Origin: Polyangiaceae bacterium | Lineage (GTDB): Bacteria; Myxococcota_A; Polyangia; Polyangiales; Polyangiaceae | Assembly (NCBI GenBank): GCA_947475525.1 | Contig: CANJMI010000003.1 | Coordinates: 207,501 to 271,500, forward strand | Length of the DNA stretch: 64,000 nt | Reading direction: 5' to 3' | The notes under the pieces: model-generated | What the model was told of the DNA's origin: nothing | What the model saw: the letters and a program-made list of their open reading frames with translations, nothing else | Databases searched by the model: none | Shown: positions 18,341-33,457 of the stretch, piece by piece | Layout of the letters: each line of letters begins with the position of its first letter | Position numbering within the stretch: position 1 is the stretch's first letter | Translations under genes and position numbers: made by a program

Positions 18341-18948
18341 TTCCGAACACGTGCGAGGTCTTCGTACTCGATCAATGCTTCCTGGAGCCGCTCGAGAGCG
18401 TATCTCATTCGGCTTTTGACCGTATTTTCAGAGACTCCCGTGATCTCGGCGATGTCCTTGAAGGGGACTTGGCCAAGTTGTCTAAGGAGGAAGACTTCGC
18501 GCTGCTCGGCCGGGAGCGCATCGAGCGCCCGGTTGACGCGCGCGCCAATGTCGGCGCTCACGGCGGTACGTTCGGCGGACGATTCAGGGCGATTGTCGGC
18601 GATGCGCTCGCTGAGTGTCGCGCCTTGCGTGTCACCGTCGCGACCCACCGGTTGATCGAGCGACGCATGCCGCCTCAGGGCGCTCTTGCGCAAGTGGTCG
18701 ATGCACAGGTTGCGGGCGATCGCGTACGTCCAGGTCGAAAACCGGGCCTCATGCTTGAATGACGCCGCGCTCTGCACCACCCTCACGAACGTGTCTTGGG
18801 TGAGGTCTTCCGCGATGCCGCGGTCTCGGACTTGGCGGAGGATGAAATTGAACATCGACGTCTTGTGCCGCCCGACCAAAATCCCGAACGCCTTTCGGTC
18901 GCCGCCCTGGAATTGCCTCATCAGGGCTTCGTCCGATACCCCGCTCAC
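18337..18948 (-). CDS. ECF-type RNA polymerase sigma factor
   Basis: 203 aa from GTG 18948, chosen because MSGVSDEALMRQFQGGD begins a standard ECF N-terminus; upstream frame to 19230 has no homology. Sigma region 2 is seen in IAEDLTQDTFVRVVQ and FSTWTYAIARNLCIDHLR. Region 4 is seen in LPAEQREVFLLRQLGQ and FKDIAEITGVSENTVKSRM. It should direct transcription of a small envelope or stress regulon. It is translationally coupled to the downstream membrane protein, its likely antagonist. Confidence 0.9.
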   Translation of the reverse strand: MSGVSDEALMRQFQGGDRKAFGILVGRHKTSMFNFILRQVRDRGIAEDLTQDTFVRVVQSAASFKHEARFSTWTYAIARNLCIDHLRKSALRRHASLDQPVGRDGDTQGATLSERIADNRPESSAERTAVSADIGARVNRALDALPAEQREVFLLRQLGQVPFKDIAEITGVSENTVKSRMRYALERLQEALIEYEDLARVRK

Positions 18949-19240
18949 TTCGGCCAAACGAGCCCCCGTTCGGGCAATTGGCCCACCGGCGCTGGTCGTC
19001 GCCAAGTGCCTGGACGCGCGACGGCTCGGAAAGGTCTCCCGACCGGCTCTTTCCCTTCCTTGCCGCCCATGCGTCGAGGATACTACAGCCGCCGACCCTC
19101 CGAGCCCAAGCTCGTCGTCGGCTGGGCCGGTTTGAATGATTCGAAGCGCGACGTCATCGAAGCGTGTGATGCTGGGTGGAGCGCGAAGCCCGCAATTCGC
19201 CGGGCTGGCTGCTCGTGGCGGCCTCGGCAACGATCCGTCG

Positions 19241-19270
19241 TTGCCAGAAGCACGCCCGGGCGACTAGACT
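19241..19270 (+). promoter_or_regulatory. Possible sigma-70-like promoter for the TPR operon
   Basis: TTGCCA at 19241-19246 and TAGACT at 19265-19270 are separated by 18 nt. The match is partial (4 of 6 in the -10). It lies about 55 nt upstream of the first start codon and upstream of the hairpin at 19285. Confidence 0.35.
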
Positions 19271-19284
19271 TAGCGCACCGTTCT

Positions 19285-19310
19285 CTCCGTGACCGCAACG
19301 GAGCGTTTTT
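19285..19310 (+). promoter_or_regulatory. Terminator-like leader hairpin
   Basis: CTCCGT (19285-19290) pairs with ACGGAG (19298-19303) around a 7-nt loop, followed by CGTTTTT. It sits between the candidate promoter and the Shine-Dalgarno GAGGA of the first operon gene. It could act as an attenuator, but a 6-bp stem may be chance. Confidence 0.3.
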
Positions 19311-19324
19311 GTGTGAGGAATTTC

Positions 19325-20206
19325 ATGCACTTCGGAGACCGCATCGGTCAAAAGAGTCGCCGCTTGAGTGGCGCATGGGCAATGTTCGCGCTTACGGGGA
19401 CCCTGTTGGCAGGCGGCTCTGTGCTCGCTCAACAGCCGGCGCATTCGCCTGAGCCACCGGCCTCGCCTTCGTCGGCGTCACCTGCGTCGGCGCCACCTGC
19501 GTCCGCGCCACCTGCGTCGGCCTCCGGGACCGCTCCGCCAGTGGAGGCGGGCTCCGCGACCGCGACGGTGCCCGCGGCTCCCGCTACGGCGAGCGCAGTG
19601 GCTGCAACGCCACCCGCACCGCCTCCTGCGGCAACGGCCGTTGCTGCCGTCCCGTCCGACGGCGCCACGTACAGCGTGAGGCTGCGCGATCTGCAGCAGC
19701 GCATCGACCAGCTCAAGGAGCAAATTCGCCGCAGCCACACACGGTTGTCGCTGCTCAGCGACACCATCCTCTCGAGCGGCGCGGCGGGCTCACGCGCCTC
19801 GATTCAATTCGAGAACAAGCTCTCGAACCTATTCCAAGTCACGAAGGCGCTCGTCGTGCTCGATGGCGCCGTTCAGTACAATAAGAGCGATCGCTCGGGC
19901 GTACTCGGCGAGCAGAAGACCATTCCGATCTTCAACGGCTCGATTCCTCCCGGTGACCACTTGGTTCAGGTTCTCGTGAACCTTCGCGGAAACGGGTACG
20001 GCGTCTTTTCGTATCTTCGCGGGTACAAGTTTGAAGTCCGCTCGAGCCATTCCTTTACCGCGGTCGAAGGCAAGAGCACGGGCTTGCGGGTAGTCGCGTA
20101 CGAAAAGGGTGGGGCCACGACCCCGCTCGAAGAGCGCCCTGCTGTCCGCTACCTCGAGAAGGTCGTCGCGGGCCCACTCGATGGCGCCGCTGCTGGCGGA
20201 AATTGA
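19325..20206 (+). CDS. Secreted protein with Ala/Pro linker, coiled coil and C-terminal beta domain
   Basis: 293 aa from ATG 19325, which has GAGGA about 5 nt upstream; the frame is open from 19289. The signal peptide ends near GGSVLAQQ. Residues about 40-105 are an Ala/Pro/Ser linker with 15-bp DNA repeats. A coiled coil follows (RLRDLQQRIDQLKEQIRR). The last 120 residues are beta-rich: ALVVLDGAVQYNKSD, PIFNGSIPPGDHLVQVL, GYGVFSYLRGYKFEVRSSH. The linker can attract a false dihydrolipoamide acetyltransferase name; there is no lipoyl or catalytic domain. It leads the operon and is probably periplasmic. Confidence 0.75.
   Translation: MHFGDRIGQKSRRLSGAWAMFALTGTLLAGGSVLAQQPAHSPEPPASPSSASPASAPPASAPPASASGTAPPVEAGSATATVPAAPATASAVAATPPAPPPAATAVAAVPSDGATYSVRLRDLQQRIDQLKEQIRRSHTRLSLLSDTILSSGAAGSRASIQFENKLSNLFQVTKALVVLDGAVQYNKSDRSGVLGEQKTIPIFNGSIPPGDHLVQVLVNLRGNGYGVFSYLRGYKFEVRSSHSFTAVEGKSTGLRVVAYEKGGATTPLEERPAVRYLEKVVAGPLDGAAAGGN
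19479..19523 (+). repeat. Three 15-bp tandem repeats in coding sequence
   Basis: Three adjacent copies of CACCTGCGTCSGCSY encode the Ala-Pro-Pro-Ala-Ser linker of the secreted protein. They are in frame, so copy-number change would only alter linker length. Confidence 0.8.
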
Positions 20207-20283
20207 GGCCCGTGCTGCGCTGTGTCGTTTCTTCCAAGCCTGGGGCAGACGCTGCCGGCTCGCCCTACGATAGCGGAGGTCAT

Positions 20284-22707
20284 GTGTCTTTCGGCGCACG
20301 AGCGCGGCTGTTCACCAGCCGCTCGGTGATGGCGGCCGCGTTGCTGGCGTCGCTGGGCGCGGTGAGTCCGGCTCGTGCCGAGGACCCGGAGCAAGCCTTC
20401 CGGACCGCCTCGGAGCAGATATCGAACGCGAGCCAGGATGCCGGGGCTGTCGATACGGCGGTCGCCCGCCACAATGAGCCTGGGCGCGGTCCCCAACAAC
20501 GCATCGCCGACGCGGTGTTGCTGATGGGCGTGAAGGATTACGACCGGGCCGCCGACGTCTTGAACGAGATCGTCGAGCAGTACCAGAACCATTCGACGGC
20601 CTACCCGGATGGTTTGAACATGCTTGGCGAGACGTACTTTCTCTCGAAGCAGTATCTCGCGTCGCGCCGCGTCTTCATGAAGTTCATCGAGCAAGGCAGC
20701 GACCCGCGCTTTTCACCTTATCGAGAGCGCGCCGCGATTCGCATTGTCGACATTGCCCTACGGTTGCGCGACTTCTCGTCGCTGGACAAGCTCTTCTCGC
20801 TCGTAGGCTCGCTTGGCGGTGAGGCCACGAGTGGCCTTGCCTACGCGAAAGGCAAGGGGCTCCTCGCCCAAGGGAAAATCGACGCGGCCGATGCGTCACT
20901 GCGCCTCGTAGCGGCCGACAGCGCATTTTATCACCAGGCGCGGCATCTTGTTGGCGTCGCGGCGATGATGCGCGTGCCACCGCTCGATCCGAAGGATGCC
21001 CCCCGCAAGGGCTCCGCCGCGGCACTCGCGGCGCCCACCCGTTTTGACCAAGCCGTCGAGCGGTTTCGCGACGTCACCAAGCTTCCCGGGGATACCGCCG
21101 AACACCGCCGCGTGATCGACATGGCGTGGCTCGCGATCGGCCGCATCAAGTACGAGGTGGGAAGCTTTGCGGATGCCGCCGAGGCTTACAACCGGGTTGA
21201 TCGCACGTCGCCCGAGTTCGGGACGATGCTCTACGAGCTCGCGTGGGTCTACGTAAAAACCGGTGACTTCATGCGTGCCCAGCGGGCGCTCGAAGTGCTC
21301 GCGATCGCCGCCCCGAATAGCCAAGACGTGGCGGACGCTTCGCTGCTCCGTGCTGATTTGATGCTTCGAGCCGGCCAGTTCGAGAAGTCGCGCAAAGTCT
21401 ACGAGAGCGTGCGGGCCAGCTACGAGACGATGCGGGACCGGGTCGCGCAGTTCATGGCCGCGACCAAGGACCCGAGCGTGTACTTCGAGTTGCTGAGCTC
21501 CGAGCAACTCGAGGTGTTTGAGTCGGGCAATGCGCTCCCTACGATGGCGCTCAAATGGGCGCGCGATGGGGAAGACGGACCAACGGCGTTCGCGGTGATA
21601 GACGACGTGGTGTTGTCCCGACGGCTCGTTAAAGAGTCCAACGACATGATCGAGCGGCTCAACGCCGTTCTCGCTTCGCCCAACAAGATCCGAGCGATTC
21701 CTGGTCTCCGGGTTGGCGCCGAGCGCGGCCTTGGTCTTGTGAACGCACTCGCTCTCGCGCGGTTGAAGCTCGGGCAAGGCCTGGATGGAATCGAGGCCGA
21801 CAACCTGACGGCGGGGCTGCAGCAAGCGCGGGCCGAGCGAAAGATCCTCGAGGACCGCCTTGGCGTCGTGCCAGTGACATCGAGCGACTTCGCGACGCGC
21901 GACCAGCAGGCGAAGCGTCAGTGGAACAAGGCATCGCAGGAGCTGAAGCGAATCGAGCTCGAAGTCGACACGCTTCAGGCGACGATCAATGGTCTTGAGC
22001 GGGTGATCTCGGATGGGCCTACGCAAGGTGTGGTGCGCAGCCCACAGGATCTCGAGTCGTACCGTCGCTCAATCGAAGAACAGAAGAAGCTCGTCGTGCA
22101 GTATCACGAAGCGGCAGTGGAGCTGCGCCGGGTGATCGAAGCCGCAAAATTGCAGGTCGGATTCGGGGACAAGCGGTTCGTCGAGGACGAGGAGGTTCGC
22201 AAGCAGTACACCCGGGCCTTGTGGCGCGAAGTGAAGCTCGCGGAACAGGGGGAGGGCGGCGCTGCTCTCGGCGCATATGCCCGCCGGGCTCGCCCCCTCC
22301 TTTTGAAGGCCGACGATACCGAAGCGCAGGTAGAAGGTGCGTTGAAGCGCCTCTACGAGCTGGTCACGGGCAAGGTTTTGGAGCTTCGGGGTCTCGTTAA
22401 AAAGGAGACTCAGAACATCGTCACCTACTCGTTCGCTCTCGAAGCTCTCGATGCCGAGGCACGGCTCGTGGTCGGCGGCGTCGCAATGCGAAATTTCGCG
22501 ACCGTCCGCGATCGGCTCCGCAACATCGTCCTTCGTGCAGACGTCGGGATCACCGAGGAAGCTTGGGAGGTTCGTGAGTCGCAGCAGACGCGGGTACGCC
22601 GTCTGAAGGTGGAGAAGGCGCGGACCGAGTCGCGGCTCCAGGAGGAGCTCGACGAGGTGCTCGACGACAGCGGCGACGCTGACCAGGAGACGAAAAATGC
22701 GCAGTGA
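20284..22707 (+). CDS. Periplasmic TPR protein, GltC/NfsC-like position
   Basis: 807 aa from GTG 20284, which follows CGGAGGT by 3 nt and opens a clear signal peptide (MAAALLASLGAVSPARA). The frame is also open from TTG 20203. TPR helices include GVKDYDRAADVLNEIVEQY, LNMLGETYFLSKQYLASRR, VGSFADAAEAYNRV and KTGDFMRAQRALEVL. The C-terminal half (about 520-800) is a long coiled-coil region (KASQELKRIELEVDTL, RRSIEEQKKLVVQYHEAA). It overlaps the next gene by 11 bp. In Myxococcus, TPR proteins in this position form the periplasmic part of the Glt and Nfs machines. Orthology to GltC is inferred from order and architecture. Confidence 0.7.
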   Translation: MSFGARARLFTSRSVMAAALLASLGAVSPARAEDPEQAFRTASEQISNASQDAGAVDTAVARHNEPGRGPQQRIADAVLLMGVKDYDRAADVLNEIVEQYQNHSTAYPDGLNMLGETYFLSKQYLASRRVFMKFIEQGSDPRFSPYRERAAIRIVDIALRLRDFSSLDKLFSLVGSLGGEATSGLAYAKGKGLLAQGKIDAADASLRLVAADSAFYHQARHLVGVAAMMRVPPLDPKDAPRKGSAAALAAPTRFDQAVERFRDVTKLPGDTAEHRRVIDMAWLAIGRIKYEVGSFADAAEAYNRVDRTSPEFGTMLYELAWVYVKTGDFMRAQRALEVLAIAAPNSQDVADASLLRADLMLRAGQFEKSRKVYESVRASYETMRDRVAQFMAATKDPSVYFELLSSEQLEVFESGNALPTMALKWARDGEDGPTAFAVIDDVVLSRRLVKESNDMIERLNAVLASPNKIRAIPGLRVGAERGLGLVNALALARLKLGQGLDGIEADNLTAGLQQARAERKILEDRLGVVPVTSSDFATRDQQAKRQWNKASQELKRIELEVDTLQATINGLERVISDGPTQGVVRSPQDLESYRRSIEEQKKLVVQYHEAAVELRRVIEAAKLQVGFGDKRFVEDEEVRKQYTRALWREVKLAEQGEGGAALGAYARRARPLLLKADDTEAQVEGALKRLYELVTGKVLELRGLVKKETQNIVTYSFALEALDAEARLVVGGVAMRNFATVRDRLRNIVLRADVGITEEAWEVRESQQTRVRRLKVEKARTESRLQEELDEVLDDSGDADQETKNAQ

Positions 22708-25700
22708 CAGCGGAGTAGGAAGCCGGCGAATCCTCCGAGTCGCCAGCGCGCTCGCGCTCGTGTTCTTCGGGGGCCAAGCCATCTCGCAGCCCGCGAGGCC
22801 GAGTGCGTCAGCCGCCCCGGCGGGATCGGCTGTCAGCAGCGTCGCGCCGGTTGCAGCCACCGCAGTTGCGGCCATCGCACCGAGCGGATCGGCGACGCCC
22901 GCGACGAGCGGCGCACCCGATGTGGGGCCCGCATTTGGAGCCCGGCCGCGTGTGCCCAAGCCAACCGATCCAACGGTTGCGCAAAAATCTGCGCTCGAGG
23001 AACTGCAACGCGAAGCGAAGCTCTACGAGTCGGATGCCCGCGACTACCGCGCCTCGATGACGCGGATTGTCCAGCATCATTACCGCGAGAAAAAGAAGCG
23101 CGTCCTTCGTGCGCTCGACCGCGAAATCGACATCGAGAACAAAGCGCTGCGCGAGGCACGAGACGAAGCCATTCGTCGCCTCGAGGTGTTCGTCGCCCGC
23201 TACAGCGGAACAAACTCGCACCCTGAGAACACCCCCGATGCGATGTTCCGACTCGCCGCGCTCTTCGAGGAGCGCGCCCGCGATCTCGCCGAGCCCGCCG
23301 AGATCGACCTCAACGTGGCGCAGCCCGAGCCGGACCTCGGCCCGGCTATCGCCCTCTACAAGCGCATCGTCCACGAGTTTCCGAAGTACAAAGAGCGTGC
23401 TGGCGTCTTTTACTACCTTGGCCACGCGCTGAACGACGGCGGACGACTCGAGGAAGCCCAGCAGGTTTGGCGCTCGCTTGTGTGCAACAACCGCTACGCC
23501 TACCCCGTGGCGGCGGATCCGAAGAACCCGAGTCGCGATACGCTGACGCGGATCCCCCAGGATCACGCTGCGGATTGGTGGCTCGGCTGGCTGTCTCGGC
23601 ACCCCGACCCGATGGACCAGAAGCGGCAAAAAGACGCGGCGCGCCAGGCCCTTCGCGAGAAGGGCGCGCGTCAGCGGGGGCGGGCGGTGGAGCCACCCGT
23701 GCCCGATGTGCCTTCGATCGAGGACGACGAGGATTCCTTCAAGAATCCATTCCCCGAGGAATGTCGCCCCGTGGCCCAGGAAATCATCGCGGGCGAGCCT
23801 CCGCGTTATATCGGCGAGGTGTGGTGGCGCATCGCTGACTACCACTTCGACGAGATCGATCCGTACGGCGGCCCGTACAATTTGTCTCGCGCGGAGGCCG
23901 CGTACGGTCAGGCGATGAAGTTCGACCGCCCGCCTGTCTACGACGTGAGCATGTACAAGCTCGCGTGGACGTACTTCAAACAGCAGCGCTACGAGACTGC
24001 CGTCCAACAGTACATCAAGCTCCTAGACCTCACCGATCGTCGTGAGATCGAGACCGGCAATCCCGGCGCGGATTTCCGCACCGAGGCCTACGCGTACATC
24101 GCCGGCTCGATGACCTATCTCGATTTTAAGGGACCACCGGCGGGCGACCCCTACATCGCGCGCAACGACGTCTTCGATCTCTATTCGGATACGGCCCAGA
24201 TCGAACAGGCGATGCACGCGGCCATCGACCGGATACAAGAACGCTCCCTTCTCCCGCAGGATCGCAAGTGGACGATCGAGGTCTACAAGGCGCTCGCGTT
24301 CGAGTTCAAGGAGTACAGCCAGTTCCAGAACTTGATTGAGGTAAACGAGCTCATCCTGAAGAAGTGGCCGAACCATCGGGACGCTCCGATGGTCCAGAAT
24401 CAAATCGCCCTGACGTACGAGACCCTCTCGTTCGGCGCGCGAGGGGCCGAAGCGGAAGCTCTGGCGGCGAAGGCGCTCGAGGCGCGCGGCAAGCTCGTCA
24501 ATTACGTTGAGCAGCCCGGGAACATCCCCGAATGGGTCGAGAAGAACAAGGAAGACCCAGAGGCGATCCGTGCCGCTGAGCAGCTCGTGCGTGGCGGACT
24601 TCGCCGTGCCGCTGCAGACCACACGAACGCTGCGCGACGTTGGGTCAGTGAAGCGCGGAGCGCCGCCGCCGATAGTGAGCGCGAGGAGGATTTCACGCGG
24701 GCTTTGAATGAGTACCGTGCAGCCGCTGTCGCATGGGGCAGCTACCTGAACCAAGACGAGAACGCCGACGACTCGTACGACAGCCGCTTCTGGCTCGCCG
24801 ATTCGTACACCGGCGCCGTCCTCGTTCAAGTCGAGCTCTCACGCCTTCCACCCGAAAAGGACATCGCCCTTGCGCAACAGGCGGCCCGTGACGTGCGCGA
24901 CTCGAATGACAACGACGAGAAGCTGCAGCCCGCCGCCCAGATGGTGGTGTACGTCGCGCAGGCTGTTTTACGGGCGAATTACAAGCGCCACGCCGCCTCC
25001 GGTGGAACCGAAGGCATCGCGGAGCTGAAGGAAGTTCAGACCGAGAAATACGAGGACGGCGGAGACAAGCGCGAGCGCGCGGTGAAGGTCGACCTGCCCC
25101 CCGCGATCCAGAATGTGTTGAGCTCCCTCGATGAGTACGTGGCTCGCGTGCCACTCGAGAAGGAGCCGGACCCGAAGGACCCGAACCATTATCTCTACGC
25201 GTACAACGCTGGTGAGACGGCCTTCATCTACGGTCAGTTCGACGAGGCGAAGAAGCGCCTTTTGCCGATCTACAAGTCGCAGTGCGGCACGACGAAGTTC
25301 GCCTTTAACTCATGGAAGAAGCTCGTCACGATCGCTGCGCTCGAACGAGACTTCGATCGCTCGAAGGCGCTCGCTGAGGAGAACAAGAAAAAATCCTGCG
25401 CGATCACGGACGCCGATCGCGTCGTCGCCAGTAGCCTCGGCACCGACATCTTGAACTCGGCGATCTTCAAAGAAGCTTACGCCGCGTTTGAGAAGGCGCA
25501 GGCGCTTCCCGATGTGCCCGAAAACGCAGCCCAGCGCCGCGTTCTCTACACCCGCGCAGCAAGCCTCTATGAAGAGGGACTGAGCGTCGATCCCAGCCGG
25601 GATGAAGCACCGGAGGCGGCAATCAACGGTGCGATCGCTCACAAGCAGCTCAGCAATTACGACAAGGCGATCTCCATGTACGAGCTGTTCATCGGCGCGT

Positions 25701-27172
25701 ACGGCAAGGACGACGCTCTCGATGCCTTGCAGAAGGGCGACAAAAAAGGGGCGGCACCGCAGCCCGAGAAGTACGCCCAACGCGTTCGATACCTCCGTCG
25801 CGCCTACGATGAACTCGCCGAAGCGTACGTGCTTTTCTTCGACTACCGACAGGCGGCCCAGACCTACGATCGAATCAGCAACATCGACCGCGAGGTGCCG
25901 CCGTCGAAGGAGCCCGACGGCAAGGAAAAACTTGGGTCACGCGGCTTCGACCCTGAGTCGCGTCGGAACGCGGCTCAAAATGCGGTGTTCCTCTACTTGA
26001 ACATCGGCGAGCAGGCCCGGGTTGAGGCGACAAAGAAGCGTTTTTTCGCGATGAATCCGCCGAAAGAACAGCAAGCCGAAATCGAATGGCTGATCGCGCA
26101 GGGTGATCTGAAGAGCTGGGACGAACGCTCGCCGGACCGTGGTGACAATCGAGCGGCGCGCCTGCGGGCTATCGCAGCGATGGACGGGTTTTACCTCAAA
26201 TGGGCGAAGGACCAGGCGGGCTACGCGACGTCCGTGCTCGCGGCCGGATACGCGGCCAAGTTGCGTCGGTTGGGCAGTGACTTGAAGGCCGATGACTGGT
26301 GTGACAACGCCGTCTCGACGTTCGACTCGTTCAAGGCTTCCGCGCCCAAGGACGAAAAGGGCGCGAGCAAGGCGACCGCTACTCCGCAAGCCGACGTCGC
26401 CGCCGAGTGCGAGTACCGCCGCGTCGACGATGAGCTAAAGAAAAACTTCGATTACGAGACTGGCCACCACCGCTACACGGGCGTGATCACGGACATCACC
26501 AAGGCGTACGAAGAAGACGTCAACAAGGTAGCCAAGGGATACGCGGATAAGCTGCAGAGCATCGTCGAGAAGTACAACTCGGGCCGGTGGACCGTAGCTT
26601 CGCGAGCGCGCCGGGGAACCTTGTACGACTCGTGCCGCACCGGTCTCTTCAATGCACGCGAGCCCGGCCTGAAGCTCTACAGCGACGAGCCGCAGCCGCT
26701 GAAGGCGTGCGTCATCCTCAAGAAGAAAAAATGCAGCGAAGTCGAGCTTCTAAAAGAACTCGACAAGCAGTGCACGGAAACGGGAAACGAGTCCTCGTGC
26801 AATGGGTATGACTCCTTCACGTCGAAGCGTCGCCTCGACTGGCGCAAGAAACGTGATGAGCTCCTCGACGGAACCGACAAGCTGATGGTGGCGAGCTACA
26901 CCGACGCCATTGTGCTCGGGCAGTTCTTCCGACAACGCGTCAAGGAGGTCGACCTCGCCGTCGCGCGCCTCGCGTTCCACCAGGACATCATCGGCGACAT
27001 GAAATTGCGCGATTACTCGGGGCTCGTGAAGGACCCGAATCACAAGGACGACGACGGCAAGCCCATGACATTCGATTACCAAGATGGCATGTTCCCGCGG
27101 ATGCGCCGCGGCCTTGGAATGCCTCTCGCGGATCAGGTCATGACGGCCCCGGTGCCGCTCACGAGCCAATGA
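22697..27172 (+). CDS. Very large periplasmic TPR protein, GltD/NfsD-like
   Basis: 1491 aa. The signal peptide VASALALVFFGGQAIS is followed by an Ala/Pro/Ser stretch to about residue 80 and a helical region rich in Arg, Glu and Lys. TPR motifs run through much of the chain, e.g. MFRLAALFEERARDLA, KLAWTYFKQQRYETAVQQY, AINGAIAHKQLSNYDKAISMY and AYVLFFDYRQAAQTY. A Lys/Cys-containing C-terminal region follows (KACVILKKKKCSEVE). Size, position and content match the large TPR component (AgmU/GltD type) of the Glt/Nfs family. It overlaps the neighbouring genes by 11 bp upstream and 4 bp (ATGA) downstream, so the genes are tightly coupled. Confidence 0.72.
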   Translation: MRSDSGVGSRRILRVASALALVFFGGQAISQPARPSASAAPAGSAVSSVAPVAATAVAAIAPSGSATPATSGAPDVGPAFGARPRVPKPTDPTVAQKSALEELQREAKLYESDARDYRASMTRIVQHHYREKKKRVLRALDREIDIENKALREARDEAIRRLEVFVARYSGTNSHPENTPDAMFRLAALFEERARDLAEPAEIDLNVAQPEPDLGPAIALYKRIVHEFPKYKERAGVFYYLGHALNDGGRLEEAQQVWRSLVCNNRYAYPVAADPKNPSRDTLTRIPQDHAADWWLGWLSRHPDPMDQKRQKDAARQALREKGARQRGRAVEPPVPDVPSIEDDEDSFKNPFPEECRPVAQEIIAGEPPRYIGEVWWRIADYHFDEIDPYGGPYNLSRAEAAYGQAMKFDRPPVYDVSMYKLAWTYFKQQRYETAVQQYIKLLDLTDRREIETGNPGADFRTEAYAYIAGSMTYLDFKGPPAGDPYIARNDVFDLYSDTAQIEQAMHAAIDRIQERSLLPQDRKWTIEVYKALAFEFKEYSQFQNLIEVNELILKKWPNHRDAPMVQNQIALTYETLSFGARGAEAEALAAKALEARGKLVNYVEQPGNIPEWVEKNKEDPEAIRAAEQLVRGGLRRAAADHTNAARRWVSEARSAAADSEREEDFTRALNEYRAAAVAWGSYLNQDENADDSYDSRFWLADSYTGAVLVQVELSRLPPEKDIALAQQAARDVRDSNDNDEKLQPAAQMVVYVAQAVLRANYKRHAASGGTEGIAELKEVQTEKYEDGGDKRERAVKVDLPPAIQNVLSSLDEYVARVPLEKEPDPKDPNHYLYAYNAGETAFIYGQFDEAKKRLLPIYKSQCGTTKFAFNSWKKLVTIAALERDFDRSKALAEENKKKSCAITDADRVVASSLGTDILNSAIFKEAYAAFEKAQALPDVPENAAQRRVLYTRAASLYEEGLSVDPSRDEAPEAAINGAIAHKQLSNYDKAISMYELFIGAYGKDDALDALQKGDKKGAAPQPEKYAQRVRYLRRAYDELAEAYVLFFDYRQAAQTYDRISNIDREVPPSKEPDGKEKLGSRGFDPESRRNAAQNAVFLYLNIGEQARVEATKKRFFAMNPPKEQQAEIEWLIAQGDLKSWDERSPDRGDNRAARLRAIAAMDGFYLKWAKDQAGYATSVLAAGYAAKLRRLGSDLKADDWCDNAVSTFDSFKASAPKDEKGASKATATPQADVAAECEYRRVDDELKKNFDYETGHHRYTGVITDITKAYEEDVNKVAKGYADKLQSIVEKYNSGRWTVASRARRGTLYDSCRTGLFNAREPGLKLYSDEPQPLKACVILKKKKCSEVELLKELDKQCTETGNESSCNGYDSFTSKRRLDWRKKRDELLDGTDKLMVASYTDAIVLGQFFRQRVKEVDLAVARLAFHQDIIGDMKLRDYSGLVKDPNHKDDDGKPMTFDYQDGMFPRMRRGLGMPLADQVMTAPVPLTSQ

Positions 27173-28602
27173 GGTGTGACGTGCCGACGAACATCAAGTC
27201 GATGAGTTTCCGCTGGCTCTCCGCGCCTGCTGCACTTGTGGCGCTCGTCGCGCTCGGTGGGGCTGCGGCGATTGGCTGCGAATCGACCCCGGTGGCGAAG
27301 AGTCCGCTCGATCCGGGGAGCAACTCCACAGAGTCGGGGCCCCCCGTCGAGCCTGGGGCGGAGGCTGCCATTCCCACAGCCGGCGCGAATCCCGGCGATG
27401 TGCCGCCGCCCGCACCCGTTGCGCCCGATCAGCCTGCGGCGCCGACGATGAGCCCTCAGGCGCTTGCCGACTACGAGCAGGGCTTCGCGGCGTTCAACAA
27501 CGCGGACATCTCCGGCGCCGTGCAAGCGTTCACTTCGGCAACGAAGGTCGACCCTCGTGCGTACAAGGCGTTCTTCGCGCTTGGCGCGATGCACGAGCGC
27601 GCTGGCAACGTCTCGGGCGCGTTGTCGGCCTACCAGCAATCCTTTGTGATCCAACCGGATTTTAGCGCCGGAATTGTCGCCTACGCGCTGCTCCAAGCTG
27701 AGACCGGAAACCTCGGTGCGGCCGAGACAATTCTCGTGCAAAAGCGTTCTGCGCTGACGAAGAGTGCCGCTCTGGCCGCCGCCCTCGCTGAAGTCAAATC
27801 GCAGTCCAAGGACAGCGCAAGCGCTCAGCAGTTGGCCCAGGAATCGCTCAAGCTCGACCCGACGTTTGCGCCTGCGATGTTGGCCGTCGCGCGCGACCAC
27901 TATCGGGCTCGTCGACTCGATCTTTCCCTCTATGCACTGAAGGCGATTCTTGATGGGTTTGGGCCGCTGAATCCGCCGCGGGACAAGAGCAACGCGGAGG
28001 CCCGATTGCTACGCGCGACGATTTGGCTTGAGCAGGATCGGCGCGTGATGGCGATGGACGAGTACAAGGTGGTGCTCGAGGCCCGTCCCGATCTCGTTGT
28101 GCCGCGGCTCCGTTATGCAACGTATCTGCTCGAGTCAGGCGGCGTTGGCGATGCGATCCCCATTCTCCAAAAAGCACTCCAGTACGATTCCAACAACGTC
28201 GCGGCGCACCTGAGCCTTGGCGACGCGTATCGCCTCAAGGGTGACTACACGAAGGCGCGTCAAGAGTTCGAATGGGTGCAGCGGCAGAACCCCGGCCTCG
28301 CCGCGGCGCACTACAACATGGGTCTGCTTTTTCTTTTCGCGCCAAGCGTCGATGGCCTGTCGACCCGCGAGCAAGTCGACGCGGCGACGGCATCGCTGAA
28401 CAAGTTCAAAGAGTTCGCGACCAAAGGCGAGCAAGGGGACGTCGACGAGCTCTTGAAGCGCGCCTCGCTGAAGAAAGCCGAACTCGATGCCCTCGCGGCT
28501 GCATCCGCTGCTGCTGCGGCCCCTCCGCCTCCGCCTCCGCCGCCGGCGAATGGCGACGCCACGCCACCTGCCGATGCCGCAACGACCACTGGAGGAGGTT
28601 GA
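27169..28602 (+). CDS. TPR outer-membrane lipoprotein, GltE/AglT-like
   Basis: 477 aa. The ATG overlaps the previous stop (ATGA). The signal peptide ends ALGGAAAIGC, a lipobox with Cys about residue 37, followed by a Pro/Ala-rich tether. At least seven TPR-like units follow, e.g. YEQGFAAFNNADISGAVQ, AFFALGAMHERAGNVSGA, PAMLAVARDHYRARRLD, NVAAHLSLGDAYRLKGDYT and AHYNMGLLFLF. The C-terminus is a poly-Pro/Ala tail. A TPR lipoprotein directly after a large TPR protein matches AglT/GltE (or NfsE), which anchors the complex at the outer membrane. Equivalence is inferred. Confidence 0.75.
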   Translation: MRCDVPTNIKSMSFRWLSAPAALVALVALGGAAAIGCESTPVAKSPLDPGSNSTESGPPVEPGAEAAIPTAGANPGDVPPPAPVAPDQPAAPTMSPQALADYEQGFAAFNNADISGAVQAFTSATKVDPRAYKAFFALGAMHERAGNVSGALSAYQQSFVIQPDFSAGIVAYALLQAETGNLGAAETILVQKRSALTKSAALAAALAEVKSQSKDSASAQQLAQESLKLDPTFAPAMLAVARDHYRARRLDLSLYALKAILDGFGPLNPPRDKSNAEARLLRATIWLEQDRRVMAMDEYKVVLEARPDLVVPRLRYATYLLESGGVGDAIPILQKALQYDSNNVAAHLSLGDAYRLKGDYTKARQEFEWVQRQNPGLAAAHYNMGLLFLFAPSVDGLSTREQVDAATASLNKFKEFATKGEQGDVDELLKRASLKKAELDALAAASAAAAAPPPPPPPPANGDATPPADAATTTGGG

Positions 28603-28605
28603 CCT

Positions 28606-28896
28606 ATGAGGACTGTCTTCAATCGATTCGATCGGACTCTCTGTCGCCGTGTGTTCACGCTCGTTCTCGTCGCGTTAGCGTTGGCGCCGAATGACGCGGC
28701 GGCCCAGGAGACCAAGAGCAAAGGCCGCGCGCCGCGGGGTGTCATTACGCTCGCGGAGGTGACGATCACGGGCCGGCTTCAGAAGCCGATCGCGGCTGTC
28801 GATGTCGCCCGAATTCGACCGTCGCTCACCTTGTCCGAGCTCAAGCAGCCGTTCTTGAAGCGGATCGAAGCCGCCATCTACAAAGATCCGTTTTGA
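28606..28896 (+). CDS. Small secreted protein of the TPR operon
   Basis: 96 aa. GGAGG lies about 8 nt before the ATG, and the gap to the previous stop is 3 bp, so translation is well supported. The signal peptide is VFTLVLVALALAPNDAAAQ. The mature part is about 65 residues with a Lys-rich start, a short beta segment (GVITLAEVTITGRLQKP) and a helix ending KRIEAAIYKDPF. No family recognised. Its place inside the operon suggests a small structural or adaptor part of the envelope complex. Confidence 0.75.
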   Translation: MRTVFNRFDRTLCRRVFTLVLVALALAPNDAAAQETKSKGRAPRGVITLAEVTITGRLQKPIAAVDVARIRPSLTLSELKQPFLKRIEAAIYKDPF

Positions 28897-28984
28897 CGGC
28901 ATCGCTTGCGTGATGACGCTTACCTTTGCCTTGACCGTCGTTGCCCTGAAAGAGCCGGCGCCCCGAGCGTGAACGGACGCCGAA

Positions 28985-29467
28985 ATGCTCGGGTACGCGG
29001 TCGGCCTCGGAATTGCGTTCGCGTGCGGTGGACTCGCCTGGCGTGCTGTTGTGCGCATGCAGCGCCGTTTCGATGATTGGCGAGTGGCTTTTCGTCTCGC
29101 GCTTGATGATGCGGCATCGGACGCGCAGCGCGCCACGCGGGTGGACGAGCTGCTCGGGGACTTGGAACGGGACCTCGATACCGACGCATTTCTCTCGGGT
29201 GCCGCGGTGCGGCTCGCCGTGGTTGGTGGCGCGGCCTGTGGTCTCGCGTTCGGCCTCGGCGGGGCTTGGCGCGAAGGCTTGGGCGTCTTGCCTGGGGCGG
29301 CATTCGGCGCCCTCGTGGCGGCTCGTCTTGGCCGTGTGCGAGCGACGAGGAGCGCGGCTATTCGTGATGGTGTTTCTGGGATCGTCGAGCGCGAGGCCTC
29401 TGGGCTACTCGTGCAAACGGTCACCCATGCGCTCCGGCCCCGGCGAACGCCTTTCGGGAAGCGCTGA
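28985..29467 (+). CDS. Small membrane protein, unknown
   Basis: 160 aa. An N-terminal transmembrane helix (AVGLGIAFACGGLAWRAV) is followed by a charged cytoplasmic helix (VDELLGDLERDLDTD) and two more hydrophobic segments (LAVVGGAACGLAFGLGG, VLPGAAFGALVAARLG). It is less certain than its neighbours because no strong ribosome-binding site was seen. It sits between the small secreted protein and the AgmX/PglI-type protein, in the same direction. Confidence 0.55.
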   Translation: MLGYAVGLGIAFACGGLAWRAVVRMQRRFDDWRVAFRLALDDAASDAQRATRVDELLGDLERDLDTDAFLSGAAVRLAVVGGAACGLAFGLGGAWREGLGVLPGAAFGALVAARLGRVRATRSAAIRDGVSGIVEREASGLLVQTVTHALRPRRTPFGKR

Positions 29468-29603
29468 ATGACCGTCGAACCCGTGCCGCAGAAGAGCGTA
29501 CGGCCCCGTCGCACGTAGACTCGAAAGTCACGACTCTGGACCCTCTGTCCACCAGCGTGTACGCTCCCCAAAACCACCCCGCTACCGGAGGCTTGAGCCA
29601 CCA

Positions 29604-31121
29604 GTGAGCGAGGCCGGAGACAAGTCGATGCAGCAGACAACTCAGAGCCCACGCTCCTCCGTTCGCCCAGGTCGCATGACCGCTGTGATGCGGGCCGTTT
29701 CGCAGCAGGCCGGCCCGAAAATCCTCCGGATTGGCGTCGTTCAAGGCGGCAAGGTCATCGACGAGCGCCTGATTAAGCAGCGCACGCACGTCACCATCGG
29801 CCCAAGCGAAAAGTCGATGTTCGTGGTGCCGAGTCGTAAAATCCCGCCAAGCTTCAAGCTGTTTGAGCTGATCGGTACCGACTACCATCTCAACTACCTC
29901 GAGGGGATGACCGGTCGCGTCGCGCTGAAGACGGGCGTCAGCGATCTCGCTGGTCTCGGCGCGCAGGCGAAGGCCGTCCAAGACAAGAGCGGTAATTTCC
30001 AACGAGTTCGGCTCACGGAGGATTCCCGCGGCAAGGTCGTCGTCGGCGAGATGACGTTCCTTTTCCAATTCGTCGCGCCGCCTCCGGTGCAGCCGAAGCC
30101 GCAGCTCCCGATGTCCGTGAAACAGGGCGTCGCGGGTGACATCGACTGGTTCACGACGATCGTGGCTTCGTTCTCGTTTCTCTTGCACTTCTTCTTCGTG
30201 GCCTTGGTCTATTCCGATTGGATGGACCCGATCGTGCGCGACGAAGATGCGGTCGTCAGCCAATTGGTTGAGTCGATCAAGAGCTTGCCTCCGCCGCCAC
30301 AGATCGAGAAGCAGAAGAGCGACGCCACGACGGAGAAGACCTCGGCTGCGGCTACCGATGCCAACGCGCCGAAGGCAACGGCTCCTTCTGCGGGCAGCCA
30401 AGCCAACAAATCTCCTGGTGCCGGCGACAAATCCCCCGGCGACAAAGCCGCGGGCGAGCGGGCGGCTGCTGACGCGAAGGCCTCCGAGTTGTCGAGCGCA
30501 CTTGCCGAACTCGACGTTCAGACTCTCGGGGCACTCGGTAGCGGCGGGGTCGCAGTCGACAACGTGCTCGGTAGCGGTGAAGTGCCGGCCGGTATGCTCG
30601 ATGAAGCCGCGCGTTCAGGCTCAGGCGCTGGCGCGGGAGATCCCGGTGGATTGAAAGGCTTTGGCGGCAGTGGCCGAGGCGGCACGGGACCGCTCGGGGG
30701 CGGCAGCGGCGGCGGCGATCTGAGCACGAAAGGCGAGCGCGGCGGCAGCGAAGGCGGCGGCGCTACGGGTGAGGGCAAGAAGGCTGAAGTCAAGGGGCCC
30801 ACCGGCGATGCAAGCGTCGGCGGTGCCAGCGTCGGGGGCGGGGCCGTGGCCAACGCGAGTTCGGTCGTCGCCCGCATGAAGGGGCGGTTTCGCTCGTGTT
30901 ATCAAGCCGGGCTGAACTCGAATCCCGAGATGAGCGGCAACGTGACGCTGGTGGCCACCATTGGCCCGAACGGTGAAGTTCTGAGTGTCGGTGGCGGTGG
31001 TGGCGGCGGGCTCGGAGCAATCGTCGGGTGCCTCAAGTCGGTCGTGCAGGGAGCCTCATTTTCTCCACCGGAAGGCGGCAAGGCGATCGTGTCGATCCCG
31101 ATCACGTTCGTGAAGCAGTGA
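29604..31121 (+). CDS. Inner-membrane AgmX/PglI C-terminal-domain protein, GltG-like
   Basis: 505 aa from GTG. Residues about 38-155 form a cytoplasmic FHA-like beta domain (VIDERLIKQRTHVTIGPSE, VPSRKIPPSFKLFELIG). One membrane helix follows (TTIVASFSFLLHFFFVALVY), then a long Ala/Gly/Ser-rich periplasmic linker. The last 85 residues are the AgmX/PglI C-terminal (TonB-like) domain: RMKGRFRSCYQAGL, GNVTLVATIGPNGEV, IVGCLKSVVQGASFSPP, VSIPITF. In Myxococcus such proteins span the cell wall and couple the inner-membrane motor to outer components. No ExbB/MotA-type motor gene is in the window. Confidence 0.82.
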   Translation: MSEAGDKSMQQTTQSPRSSVRPGRMTAVMRAVSQQAGPKILRIGVVQGGKVIDERLIKQRTHVTIGPSEKSMFVVPSRKIPPSFKLFELIGTDYHLNYLEGMTGRVALKTGVSDLAGLGAQAKAVQDKSGNFQRVRLTEDSRGKVVVGEMTFLFQFVAPPPVQPKPQLPMSVKQGVAGDIDWFTTIVASFSFLLHFFFVALVYSDWMDPIVRDEDAVVSQLVESIKSLPPPPQIEKQKSDATTEKTSAAATDANAPKATAPSAGSQANKSPGAGDKSPGDKAAGERAAADAKASELSSALAELDVQTLGALGSGGVAVDNVLGSGEVPAGMLDEAARSGSGAGAGDPGGLKGFGGSGRGGTGPLGGGSGGGDLSTKGERGGSEGGGATGEGKKAEVKGPTGDASVGGASVGGGAVANASSVVARMKGRFRSCYQAGLNSNPEMSGNVTLVATIGPNGEVLSVGGGGGGGLGAIVGCLKSVVQGASFSPPEGGKAIVSIPITFVKQ

Positions 31122-31263
31122 TCGCGCGAGGCGTCTCAGCCTCAAACTCTGAACGGCAGCCCACGCGGTCCACAAAGCCCGTCTTTTCGGGCACGATGAA
31201 TGCCCACCGGCGCGGGTGCATCGGAAGGGGATACGGGGAGCGACGCCTGGCATTCGTCGGCGT

Positions 31264-31293
31264 TTGACATCAACGAAGGTCGGGCGATATAGT
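31264..31293 (+). promoter_or_regulatory. Near-consensus sigma-70 promoter
   Basis: TTGACA (31264-31269, perfect) and TATAGT (31288-31293, 5 of 6) are separated by 18 nt. A start site near 31300 would leave a leader of only about 16 nt containing the GGAGGA Shine-Dalgarno before the ATG at 31316. This is the clearest promoter in the window. Confidence 0.8.
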
Positions 31294-31315
31294 CTCGACA
31301 GCACGGAGGAACGGT

Positions 31316-31897
31316 ATGGGGCGCAGCACCAAGCGATTGTTGACGTACGCGATTGGCGGAATCTTTGCCTTAGTTGGCTCAGGGATCGCGACTGCGCAGC
31401 AGCCTGTCTCCGGCGTGCCGGAGTTCGATGTTCCCGCAGGTAAGGTCGTCAAGCTTAGCGCGGCCGAGCAACTCGAACAAGCGACGGGCTTCGTGGCGGG
31501 CATGGAGCGGGTCCGCGAGAGCGTGCGCCGCGAGCTCGAGGAAGCGCGCAGCAAAGGCGACATCGTCAAGAAGCTCTGTCTCGACGATAAGCTGAACCAG
31601 CTTGACGTGGCGCTCCGCAAGGCGACCGAGCGCGAAAAGGCGCTTGAAAATGCCGTTAAGGTCAACGACGCCGAGCTGACGAACCACGAATTTACGATTC
31701 TCAGCGTCCTCAACCAACGGGCGACGGCGCTCGATGCCGAAGCGAAGCTCTGCATCGGCAAAGAGATTGTCGCGGTTGGCGATAGCTCGACCCAAATGGA
31801 CATCGAAGGCTCGATGCCCGACGAGTCGCAGACGACGGCGTTCCCAACTCCGCCTCTCGTCACGGAGCCCCCGGCTTGCGCCTCCTGTTTTCGTTGA
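31316..31897 (+). CDS. Secreted coiled-coil protein, unknown
   Basis: 193 aa. GGAGGA sits 6 nt before the ATG. The signal peptide is YAIGGIFALVGSGIATAQQ. The mature protein is mostly a Glu/Lys/Arg helix with coiled-coil spacing (MERVRESVRRELEEARSKG, VALRKATEREKALENAV) and two Cys at the C-terminus (PPACASCF). No enzymatic motif. It has its own strong promoter and precedes the OPX/barrel pair in the same direction, which may make it part of that locus. Confidence 0.75.
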   Translation: MGRSTKRLLTYAIGGIFALVGSGIATAQQPVSGVPEFDVPAGKVVKLSAAEQLEQATGFVAGMERVRESVRRELEEARSKGDIVKKLCLDDKLNQLDVALRKATEREKALENAVKVNDAELTNHEFTILSVLNQRATALDAEAKLCIGKEIVAVGDSSTQMDIEGSMPDESQTTAFPTPPLVTEPPACASCFR

Positions 31898-32082: not shown

Positions 32083-33441
32083 ATGAGGATGAAATCTGCC
32101 CTGCTTGCTTTTCTTGCCACTTCGGCTGTCGCGTTGACGGCCGGAGCGCAAGTCACTGTGTCCGGGCAGGAACCAGCCTGGCTGCCGGATCGGCAGTTCC
32201 GCGAGGGTGCCGGCATTCTGGCCGGAAATCTCGAGCTGCATCCGGGCGTTGCGATGGACTTCGGCTACGACTCGAACTTCACGCGGCGCGCATCCGACGA
32301 GAGTCCGGTCGGTTCGCTCCAACTTCGGGTGTCACCGTCTTTTTCAATGACGACGCTCGGGGCGCAGCGGCGTGCGGACGGTGCTCAACCGACGGTTAAC
32401 TTTCGGCTTGAGACCGGGCTCACCTACCACGAGTTCATTCCGATTCGGGGTGGGACGCAACTCGATCGCGACGTGTTGCGCGCGCAGCGGAACGTCGACG
32501 GATTTTTGAGGTTCAACCTCGATGTGTTGCCCGGGCGCCCGTGGTCGGGGCGACTCTACGGTGGCCTGACCCGCGCGATTCGCCCGACTCAGCAAGCGAT
32601 TGCCGGCACGAACTTTAACCGGCTCATGCCTGGGGCCGGCACGGAAATCGTCTACACGCCAGGGAGCGGGTTGCTCGATTGGCGATTGGGTTACGAGTTC
32701 AGCGGCACGGTCTTCGAGAAGGGTGACTTCTCTGCTCTCAGCAGCTTTCGCAATGAAGTGCTGACTCGCGGGCGGTGGCGTTTCTTGCCCCGCACGGCCC
32801 TGATTTACGACGGTCGCTTCGCCGCGATAAACTACCCGAAGACCGGCCTCAGCAAGACGGGCTCGCACCCCGTACGCACTCGGTTGGGCGCGACGGGCCT
32901 GATCACGCCCTCTTTCGGTGCGCTCGCGATGGTGGGTTGGGGCGCGAGCTTCTACTCGAACGACGCTCAGGATTTCAACAGCGTCATCGCGCAACTCGAA
33001 CTCAAGTGGTACTTGCAGCCGACACTGACCACCGACCCCCTCAAGGTGAACCCGCTGCTTTCGGCAGTGTCGGTCGGCTTCGTGCGTGACTTCGACGACA
33101 GCCTCATCGGTACCTACCTCGAGAAAAACCAGGGTTTCGTCAAGTTCAACTACCTCTTCGGGGGGAGATTCCTCTTCAACGCGGAGCTCGCGGCGGGAGC
33201 CATTGTTTTCCCGGTTCAGGACAATCCCGACTACGGGCATCCCGCGGGTTGGTCGGACATGCGAGTCGATGGCCGCGTTTTCGGTGAGTACCGCGTCAAG
33301 GACTGGTTGGGCCTCGACGCTCAGCTCGATTACATCGGCTACTTCAGCCAGACACGTCTTGCGTTCCCGAATGCCAATGGTACCGACAACCTTGCTTATC
33401 AGCAGGTGTCGCTCTTCGGCGGAGCGCGCGTCTTCTGGTGA
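32083..33441 (+). CDS. Outer-membrane beta-barrel, probable partner of the OPX protein
   Basis: 452 aa. The signal peptide is LLAFLATSAVALTAGAQ. The rest is alternating beta strands with aromatic ends (VAMDFGYDSNFTRRAS, LDWRLGYEFSGTVFEKG, LGLDAQLDYIGYFSQTRL), and the last residue is aromatic (GGARVFW), the usual BamA-recognised end. Barrel size and position directly upstream of a short OPX gene (16-bp gap) match the Wzp-type porins that pair with OPX proteins lacking their own membrane-spanning helix in myxobacteria. This pairing is inferred; the barrel itself is well supported. Confidence 0.75.
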   Translation: MRMKSALLAFLATSAVALTAGAQVTVSGQEPAWLPDRQFREGAGILAGNLELHPGVAMDFGYDSNFTRRASDESPVGSLQLRVSPSFSMTTLGAQRRADGAQPTVNFRLETGLTYHEFIPIRGGTQLDRDVLRAQRNVDGFLRFNLDVLPGRPWSGRLYGGLTRAIRPTQQAIAGTNFNRLMPGAGTEIVYTPGSGLLDWRLGYEFSGTVFEKGDFSALSSFRNEVLTRGRWRFLPRTALIYDGRFAAINYPKTGLSKTGSHPVRTRLGATGLITPSFGALAMVGWGASFYSNDAQDFNSVIAQLELKWYLQPTLTTDPLKVNPLLSAVSVGFVRDFDDSLIGTYLEKNQGFVKFNYLFGGRFLFNAELAAGAIVFPVQDNPDYGHPAGWSDMRVDGRVFGEYRVKDWLGLDAQLDYIGYFSQTRLAFPNANGTDNLAYQQVSLFGGARVFW

Positions 33442-33457
33442 CGGAGTCGCACGGAGG

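Follow-up and report, generated by a model that had tools for sequence, protein, structure and literature searches.

Gene content and extent of the operon

The window analysed here is a stretch of 64,000 nucleotides from a Polyangiaceae bacterium (GCA_947475525.1, contig CANJMI010000003.1, positions 207,501-271,500 of the forward strand), and all gene coordinates below are window positions. As stated in the preliminary description, seven co-directional genes lie on the + strand at 19325-31121, and all seven ORFs are present. Gene A (19325..20206; ATG start, with a GTG at 19289) encodes a secreted coiled-coil protein with a conserved C-terminal domain. Its alignment contains 20 invariant columns among 23 sequences, and no significant relative was found in Pfam (best E 0.0081) or the PDB (best E 0.16). 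Gene C (20284..22707; GTG start, in an ORF that opens at 20203) encodes a GltC-like secreted TPR protein of 807 aa. It is followed by D (22697..27172), a GltD-like large secreted TPR protein of 1491 aa, and by E (27169..28602), a GltE-like TPR lipoprotein of 477 aa with a lipobox read from the sequence. The overlaps of 11 bp (C/D) and 4 bp (D/E) were also reported correctly. F (28606..28896) is a GltF-like small secreted protein of 96 aa, assigned by its position and a weak hhalign match (88%) to canonical F. The small membrane protein M (28985..29467) occupies the slot of the motor genes in other genomes. The last of the seven is the GltG-like protein G (29604..31121; GTG start; 505 aa), which has an FHA-like domain, a TM segment, a Gly-rich linker and a TonB-like tail.

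The operon does not end at 31121 but extends to 34096, adding three genes on the same strand. These are dn1 (31316..31897), a secreted coiled-coil protein as judged from its sequence, a Wzp-like outer-membrane beta-barrel of 452 aa with 18 predicted strands (32083..33441), and a class 3 OPX (Wza-family) lipoprotein (33458..34096). Hence the earlier view that no barrel gene is adjacent was mistaken. The ORF after OPX (34111-35106) lies on the opposite strand. Two genes on the - strand are divergent from the operon. One encodes an ECF-type sigma factor with Sigma70_r2 and r4 domains in Pfam (18337..19230), which is a possible regulator of the operon. It occurs in the same position in L034, L036, L052, L053, L105, L116, L129, L137, L138 and L142. 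The other encodes a putative anti-sigma factor (17348..18340) with one hydrophobic segment (one TM helix) and no Pfam match, whose homologue adjoins the sigma gene in L034, L036 and L052. D is kept in all four other genomes of the genus at 59-79% identity (BLASTP), and its neighbours are unchanged in all four over the stretches compared. Thus the operon genes are real.

Homology to the Glt/Nfs class

Window-type profiles were compared by hhalign with their canonical counterparts of C, D and G in the same genome, the controls being four unrelated TPR proteins and two other unrelated proteins. C matched canonical C at 99.4% and D matched canonical D at 99.9% over 959 columns, while across the C, D and G profiles the six controls gave at most 15%. 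Non-cognate canonical pairs gave 74% (C against D) and 19% (D against C). As the unrelated TPR controls show, the C and D matches are not explained by generic TPR similarity. E is not cleared in the same way, because it scored 99.0 against canonical E and 98.5 against a generic TPR protein, and is therefore not specific. G matched canonical G at 99.4% over 105 columns, mostly in the AgmX/PglI tail, and over 412 columns when three canonical sequences were used. By these profile comparisons GltC, GltD and GltG have distant homologues in C, D and G, in agreement with the initial proposal of a Glt/Nfs-related trans-envelope machine with the gene order C-D-E-F-G. All window scores fall below the NCBIfam equivalog cut-offs (GltC 53/450, GltE 90/225 and GltG 82/650 bits). 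For GltJ the best score in the NCBIfam search was 19.5 bits at a cut-off of 450, and no GltI/J-like gene was seen in the operon.

The domain reading of G as FHA-like/TM/AgmX-PglI fits its structural model. Although G has no Pfam match, it scored 46 bits for NCBIfam myxo_SS_tail (cut-off 40). The mean pLDDT of the model is 68, with the N and C domains mostly above 80. The N domain is predicted to be all-beta with FHA folds as its best PDB matches (best E 2e-3, a weak score), followed by a helix (182-203) and then by a C domain resembling TonB/TolA.

Another Glt set lies on contig C12, and it also falls under the equivalog cut-offs (254, 44 and 288 bits for GltC, GltE and GltG). GltC and GltG are far closer there than in the window (254 vs 53 and 288 vs 82 bits), whereas GltE is nearer in the window (90 vs 44 bits). 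The outcome named beforehand as refuting the proposal, a closer Glt set elsewhere, was thus found in part, for GltC and GltG but not for GltE. Because of this set and of two AglRQS-type motors in the genome, we regard the operon as a third paralogue and not as Glt proper. The suggestion of a third variant with a different cargo was the right idea. Compared with the Agl-Glt machine of M. xanthus (clusters G1/G2/M1), C, D and G correspond by homology and E and F by position, and G combines FHA-like, TM and TonB-like parts in both. In contrast, the window scores are far under the NCBIfam cut-offs and the window operon adds a polysaccharide exporter, whose barrel (452 aa, 18 strands) differs from GltA/B/H of 209-275 aa (excerpts of PMC3169522).

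The adjoining putative polysaccharide exporter

The AlphaFold2 model of the barrel has a pLDDT of 83 and 18 long strands. Its best matches by VIA-align are OprD/Occ porins and the alginate exporter AlgE (Z 17-20), and Foldseek returned generic barrels at low TM, including AlgE and the polysaccharide secretin 4y25. Since OprD/Occ porins and AlgE rank together, the model supports the fold but not the function. The OPX protein matched the polysaccharide export protein 9n9a in the PDB (E 7.6e-21) and also E. coli Wza. In Pfam it comprises Poly_export and SLBB without a C-terminal helix, the SLBB domain ending 5 aa before the C terminus as in class 3, and the 18-stranded outer-membrane barrel lies next to it as in class 3 OPX/Wzp pairs. 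At an E threshold of 0.001 it is the only Poly_export match in this genome, which is 98.9% complete.

The same OPX-barrel adjacency characterises the composite exporters WzaX/WzpX, WzaS/WzpS and WzaB/WzpB, which combine a class 3 OPX with an 18-stranded barrel (excerpts of PMC9603273 and PMC9601211). Here, by contrast with those accounts, the exporter genes and those of a Glt-like complex share one co-directional series. Contig C5 carries a PCP with a fused kinase, an epimerase and glycosyltransferases without an OPX. This PCP/OPX split resembles that of M. xanthus BPS, where WzcB is a PCP-2A and wzaB lies apart (excerpts of PMC7310880).

Motor genes

The five MotA/ExbB matches of the genome are located on contigs C2, C15 and C19, and none is in the window. 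Hence the earlier statement that no motor is adjacent holds for the window. It does not hold for the locus type, because ExbB-type motor genes precede G in 10 of the 47 loci with at least 4 kb after D. They lie between F and G, or between E and G in L099, and the one triplet checked by Pfam (L081) reads MotA_ExbB-ExbD-ExbD. M is 55% identical in L033, and between F and G the loci L034, L036 and L052 have ORFs of M-like topology with little similarity. The idea that M is a degenerate motor was unsupported, as hhalign gave 0.2% to AglR-like motors.

Both AglRQS-type motors of the genome (ExbB-ExbD-ExbD sets) are on C15. Compared with the in-operon motors of relatives, R1 is 41-46% and R2 36-43% identical. 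In the AglR tree two in-operon motors fall weakly together with R1 (84/87), and R2 is equally near others. The tree thus singles out neither of the two, if either serves this operon at all. The lack of a motor gene at the window locus, and of a clear assignment of a C15 motor to it, counts against the coupling proposed below.

Recurrence of the block in Myxococcota

Among 80 loci surveyed, 42 extend at least 8.5 kb and 47 at least 4 kb after D. The block A-C-D-E-F-G-dn1-Wzp-OPX recurs in Myxococcota: dn1 was found in 33, Wzp in 33 and OPX in 27 of the 42 longer loci, and a + strand match to F in 45 of the 47. Of the 15 loci that lack a match to OPX, six stop no more than 125 bp past their last match and cannot be judged. 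In the other nine of the 42, which have room, no OPX was found over 4.4 to 9.8 kb past the last match; L075, L076, L078 and L079, all without OPX, retain dn1 and the barrel. A looser count (either strand, any score; dn1 34/42, E 10/47) was set aside. Its count for E is an artefact, because the ORFs of E begin before D has ended, and a doubtful dn1 match (L139) was dropped in the stricter count. A, dn1, Wzp and OPX were all absent from two canonical Glt loci taken as a control.

The Wzp/OPX adjacency was seen in Myxococcaceae/Citreicoccus (L094, L096), Archangium (L101), Anaeromyxobacter (L141), Sandaracinaceae (L105, L138) and Polyangiaceae (L052), spread across the deep D tree. Downstream of OPX, polysaccharide genes (Wzy_C, nucleotide-sugar enzymes, Wzx) are present in 5 of 8 tested loci and unrelated genes in 3. 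In 12 of 30 OPX-bearing loci, as in the window, OPX is followed by a called ORF of the opposite strand. The nine OPX-less loci with room, the opposite-strand followers and the unrelated followers weigh against the reading we prefer.

Possible correspondence with the G4 cluster of M. xanthus

A locus of this type has a precedent in the G4 paralogue cluster of M. xanthus, whose gltD homologue, MXAN_1922, was of unknown function in 2011 (excerpts of PMC3169522). The BPS exporter WzaB/WzpB is MXAN_1915/1916. In the excerpted text of PMC7310880 wzaB is described as orphan-like, far from its biosynthesis genes. The gltD homologue is therefore seven locus numbers from wzaB. Five loci of the Myxococcaceae/Archangiaceae side (L087, L088, L094, L101 and L144) show the order D-E-F-G-x-dn1-Wzp-OPX, where x is cNMP-binding in the two checked. 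This eight-gene spacing from D to OPX equals that from MXAN_1922 to MXAN_1915, with M. xanthus represented by its locus numbers. The extra small gene between G and dn1 in these loci contrasts with M and the divergent sigma/anti-sigma pair of the window. Among the matches listed, abstracts and passages of open-licence PMC papers contained no earlier link of G4 or MXAN_1922 to WzaB/WzpB. A polar MXAN_1922 mutant showed no appreciable motility defect (excerpts of PMC3169522), whereas an effect on swarm spreading is ascribed to BPS (excerpts of PMC12288465). Some phenotype of this mutant would be expected if MXAN_1922 formed one system with BPS, which speaks against our preferred explanation.

Proposed role in surface polysaccharide

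As the Glt-like set stands directly beside exporter genes in many myxobacterial genomes, the data suggest a part for a relative of the gliding machine in the secretion or deposition of a surface polysaccharide. We consider it somewhat better than an even chance that the operon at 19325-34096 encodes a paralogue of the Glt/Nfs-type complex joined to a composite OPX/beta-barrel exporter, with motor work used on the polymer via Wzp. The homologies, the conserved gene order, the in-operon motors of relatives and the sole OPX of the genome are observed, and we infer from homology and synteny that in this third paralogue a motor is probably coupled to the export or handling of polysaccharide. In the proposed scheme the inner membrane would hold an AglRQS-type proton motor, encoded on C15, that acts on G through the TM and TonB-like parts of G. 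G would then pull or move a periplasmic assembly of A, C, D, E, F and dn1, which in turn would engage the Wzp/OPX translocon. The motor work might be spent on secreting, or on moving and laying down, the polymer leaving via Wzp. This polymer may belong to the M. xanthus BPS type and be supplied by a kinase-fused PCP pathway such as that on C5.

The block would unite the G4 paralogue and the orphan-like wzaB as a single, testable system in Myxococcota. If the proposal is true, the Glt/Nfs class gains a common theme, the motor-driven handling of surface polysaccharide, and outer-membrane polysaccharide export gains a possible energy source. A bolder form, which we put forward tentatively and hold to be the less probable side, is a proton-motor-driven secretion machine. 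In it the Glt-like transducer would put mechanical work directly on the OPX/beta-barrel translocon or on the polymer inside, so that export is energised across the envelope. Nfs and Glt would possibly be later offshoots of such a polymer-handling machine, not the reverse.

Two known relatives help to place the operon. The Nfs spore-coat machine (nfsA-H) has the C-to-G order in common with it, by description, and also acts on an OPX-exported polysaccharide, but the window operon itself carries Wzp and OPX. The gammaproteobacterial core complex (gltC, D, E, G and aglRQS) has the same core genes, and 10 of 47 relatives' loci likewise hold in-operon motors. Unlike the window operon, it is described without exporter genes in the excerpts of PMC3169522.

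The foremost competing explanation, which we judge unlikely, is an autonomous exporter, the Glt-like complex serving only to carry, wrap or anchor the polymer at the surface once it has been exported. In the spore coat, Nfs uses the AglRQS motor to move glycan that has already been exported (excerpts of PMC3858216 and PMC12288465), and the homology of C, D and G to the Glt/Nfs class agrees with it. However, nfs of M. xanthus (~MXAN_3374) and its spore-coat OPX (MXAN_3225) are not one block by locus number, whereas here the exporter and Glt-like genes stand together. Still less probable is a scaffold whose motor was lost in this lineage and structurally replaced by M, and which only bridges the envelope so that Wzp/OPX is held in position. 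The M-like ORFs in the motor slot in the genus and L052, and the 37 of 47 loci with no motor match, would suit such a scaffold. Yet the genome keeps two AglRQS-type motors similar to the in-operon ones, and G retains its TonB-like tail.

That the operon is this organism's own gliding machine is very improbable: gene order, homology and the higher GltE score would fit, but the far closer GltC and GltG on C12 were reason to reject the gliding machine proper, and MXAN_1922, the M. xanthus counterpart by gene spacing, is dispensable for gliding (excerpts of PMC3169522). Finally, Wzp and OPX are almost certainly not chance neighbours, since the adjacency, though 9 of the 42 loci have room and show no OPX, is repeated from Myxococcaceae to Polyangiaceae across the deep D tree.

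Extension of the operon beyond gene G

In the source genome (5.15 Mb, 59 contigs, completeness 98.9%), ORF reading recovered all seven genes of the preliminary description (A, a secreted coiled-coil protein; the TPR proteins C, D and E; the small secreted F; the small membrane protein M; and G) together with the C/D and D/E overlaps. The operon end placed at 31121 was not borne out, as three further co-directional genes follow on the + strand: dn1 (31316-31897), a secreted coiled coil; Wzp (32083-33441), an outer-membrane protein of 452 aa; and an OPX export lipoprotein (33458-34096). The next gene, 34111-35106, lies on the opposite strand. The AlphaFold2 model of the 452-aa protein (alignment of 27 sequences, pLDDT 83) is a barrel with 18 long strands. 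Among solved folds, OprD/Occ porins come nearest to it, together with the alginate exporter AlgE (Z 17-20). Because the OPX protein consists of Poly_export and SLBB domains and ends just past them, it belongs to class 3 as defined in the available text of PMC9603273. Its best PDB match is 9n9a, a polysaccharide export protein (7.6e-21), and the nine matches include E. coli Wza. This lipoprotein is the sole Poly_export match in the genome.

Conservation of the block

D identity was 59-79% in four of four further genomes of the genus, and their flanking gene order was the same within the extent of the stretches compared. For the wider survey, an alignment of ten D proteins was scanned against named genomes, giving 250 relatives, of which 80 loci, mostly MAGs, were kept; HMMs for the remaining genes were built from the genus and class relatives. 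Since five of these class relatives recur among the 80 loci (L053/L137, L054/L068, L055/L066, L056/L080 and L061/L104), those pairs are not independent and score highly by construction. On a strict recount (+ strand, at least 40 bits), loci with at least 4 kb after D contained F in 45 of 47 and G in 46 of 47, and those with at least 8.5 kb contained dn1 in 33, Wzp in 33 and OPX in 27 of 42. Six of the 15 loci without OPX are not judgeable, stopping within 125 bp of the last match (L085, L099, L107, L118, L122, L139); in the other nine, OPX was absent from 4.4-9.8 kb of further sequence (L075, L076, L078, L079, L082, L086, L123, L128, L133). No block gene at all was matched after D in L133. L075, L076, L078 and L079 keep dn1 and the barrel with no OPX match in 5 kb past it, and OPX may have moved there; in L104, a 3.6-kb insertion (18676-22303) separates Wzp from OPX. 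A, dn1, Wzp and OPX were found in neither of two canonical Glt loci (contig C12 of the same genome and genome G021), a small control.

In a D tree of 47 rows built by a quick method, the canonical pair separates at 100, and the window D clusters with two family members beside a Sandaracinaceae clade, a placement from which the genome is taken to belong to Myxococcota.

Relationship to the canonical Glt set

A canonical-type Glt set lies on C12 (56000-75500; locus positions 6672-17549, - strand), with GltC (598 aa), GltD (1263 aa), GltE-like and GltF-like proteins, GltG with an N-terminal FHA match, a lipoprotein with TPRs and, running off the stretch examined, a very large TPR protein of at least 2196 aa. 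Profiles of the window-type proteins were compared with single C12 proteins: C scored 99.4%, D 99.9% across 959 columns and G 99.4% across 105 columns, mostly its tail. Six unrelated controls (a GltI-like TPR protein, the C12 lipoprotein, two further TPR proteins, SerRS and a 1537-aa window protein) scored at most 15% against these profiles, and the top non-cognate canonical scores were 74% for C against D and 19% for D against C. With small canonical alignments instead of single proteins, the G match grew to 412 columns and F reached 88%. The E profile was unspecific (99.0 against canonical, 98.5 against a generic TPR protein). At the level of sequence profiles, these scores and controls make C, D and G remote paralogues of their Glt counterparts, and the assignment of E and F rests mainly on position; the proposed Glt-like identity thus holds for the first three. 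The model of G combines an N-terminal domain resembling FHA (weak E) with a membrane helix and a C-terminal domain of TonB/TolA type.

A closer Glt set elsewhere in the genome, also considered at the outset, is found in part: with NCBIfam curated models, GltC and GltG score higher on C12 (254 and 288 bits against 53 and 82 in the window), and GltE scores lower there (44 against 90). All window scores are far under the cut-offs, and those of C12 are likewise under them. Another GltG-like protein (125 bits, nearest to C12 GltG) lies on contig C7 (L024, 8877-10391, - strand), with no other Glt genes among HMM matches within the 19 kb examined. In L060 (6706-12924, -) and L058 (1-4747, -), a single open frame (2072 and 1582 aa, respectively) spans the C and D signals, and the two genes may be fused there.

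Candidate motors

None of the genome's five MotA/ExbB matches falls inside the window, as the reported lack of an adjoining motor gene had it, and M, which occupies the motor slot, showed no detectable similarity to motor proteins. A motorless scaffold, one of two main rivals to a motor-coupled machine, would agree with this. On the other side, two of the five matches head divergent, back-to-back ExbB-ExbD-ExbD triplets on contig C15 (73000-90000; locus positions 5749-7852, -, and 8248-10180, +). Their ExbB proteins, R1 and R2, share 33-34% identity and are 41-46% and 36-43% identical, respectively, to in-operon motors of relatives; "AglRQS-type" here means this triplet plus that likeness, not comparison with a named AglR. 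Either could be the partner of the window machine. Ten of the 47 loci with at least 4 kb after D have an AglR-like gene ahead of G, nine in the F-G interval and one between E and G (L099, whose F match is on the other strand). The L081 triplet reads MotA_ExbB, ExbD, ExbD by Pfam; the middle protein of the L141 triplet had no Pfam match. L064, from the wider clade of the window, reads D-E-motor before its contig ends. In-operon motors are scattered over the D tree (4 changes), a pattern that fits repeated motor loss or relocation.

Polysaccharide context and the M. xanthus counterpart

Among 30 loci with an OPX match, the following called ORF is on the opposite strand in 12. Ten proteins from eight loci with co-directional ORFs were surveyed, and polysaccharide genes lie downstream of OPX in five. 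Wzy_C occurs in L073 and L084; L073 and L129, as well as L098 at a distance of 2 kb, carry an epimerase or UDP-sugar dehydrogenase; and L142 has a Wzx-type flippase. The downstream genes in L096, L136 and L141 are unrelated to polysaccharide. In the window's genome, contig C5 encodes a PCP of 769 aa fused to a P-loop kinase (GNVR and AAA_31; Wzz at 22 bits, below cut-off). It lies beside genes for an epimerase, for glycosyltransferases and for a protein of several helices that has no Pfam match; this gene set contains no OPX. Such a kinase-fused PCP without an OPX beside it resembles the M. xanthus BPS polysaccharide arrangement, in which, according to the available part of PMC7310880, WzcB is a PCP-2A and wzaB (MXAN_1915) an orphan-like gene 1 Mb away.

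Five loci from the Myxococcaceae/Archangiaceae side (L087, L088, L094, L101, L144) have the order D-E-F-G-x-dn1-Wzp-OPX. The x protein is conserved, measures about 150 aa and, in the two checked by Pfam (L087, L101), has a cyclic-nucleotide-binding domain. In L091 and L096, where the G-dn1 gap is short, no x-type ORF was found. The OPX-to-D span in x-type loci is eight genes, exactly that from MXAN_1915 to MXAN_1922. As far as the cited texts go, MXAN_1915 is WzaB with MXAN_1916 as its barrel (PMC9603273, PMC9601211), and MXAN_1922 is the gltD homologue of the G4 paralogue cluster (Luciano et al. 2011, PMC3169522). From locus numbering and synteny, rather than M. xanthus DNA, we infer that the x-type locus corresponds to the G4 plus WzaB/WzpB region.

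Proposed mechanism

The anatomy suggests a chain in which a motor would act through G on a periplasmic TPR/coiled-coil assembly and then on Wzp/OPX, either driving export or moving polymer already exported. A coupled export/handling machine is the moderately favoured reading of the sequence. Its other main rival is a purely Nfs-like role after export; Nfs is described in PMC3858216, in the part available, as moving exported spore-coat polymer. Against this rival, the Wzp and OPX genes stand in the same operon here. For the coupled machine there is a real tension between the motility of an MXAN_1922 mutant, given as unaffected in the accessible text of PMC3169522, and the effect of BPS on swarm spreading reported in that of PMC12288465.

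Neighbouring genes

The 1537-aa ORF product (41866-46479, -) had no Pfam match at E 1e-5. Upstream of the operon lies a PilZ-domain protein (14970-15473, +), possibly c-di-GMP related, which may not be part of it. An ECF sigma factor and a putative anti-sigma factor (17348-19230), divergent from the operon, are conserved across the genus and also occur in L052 and the adjoining clade.
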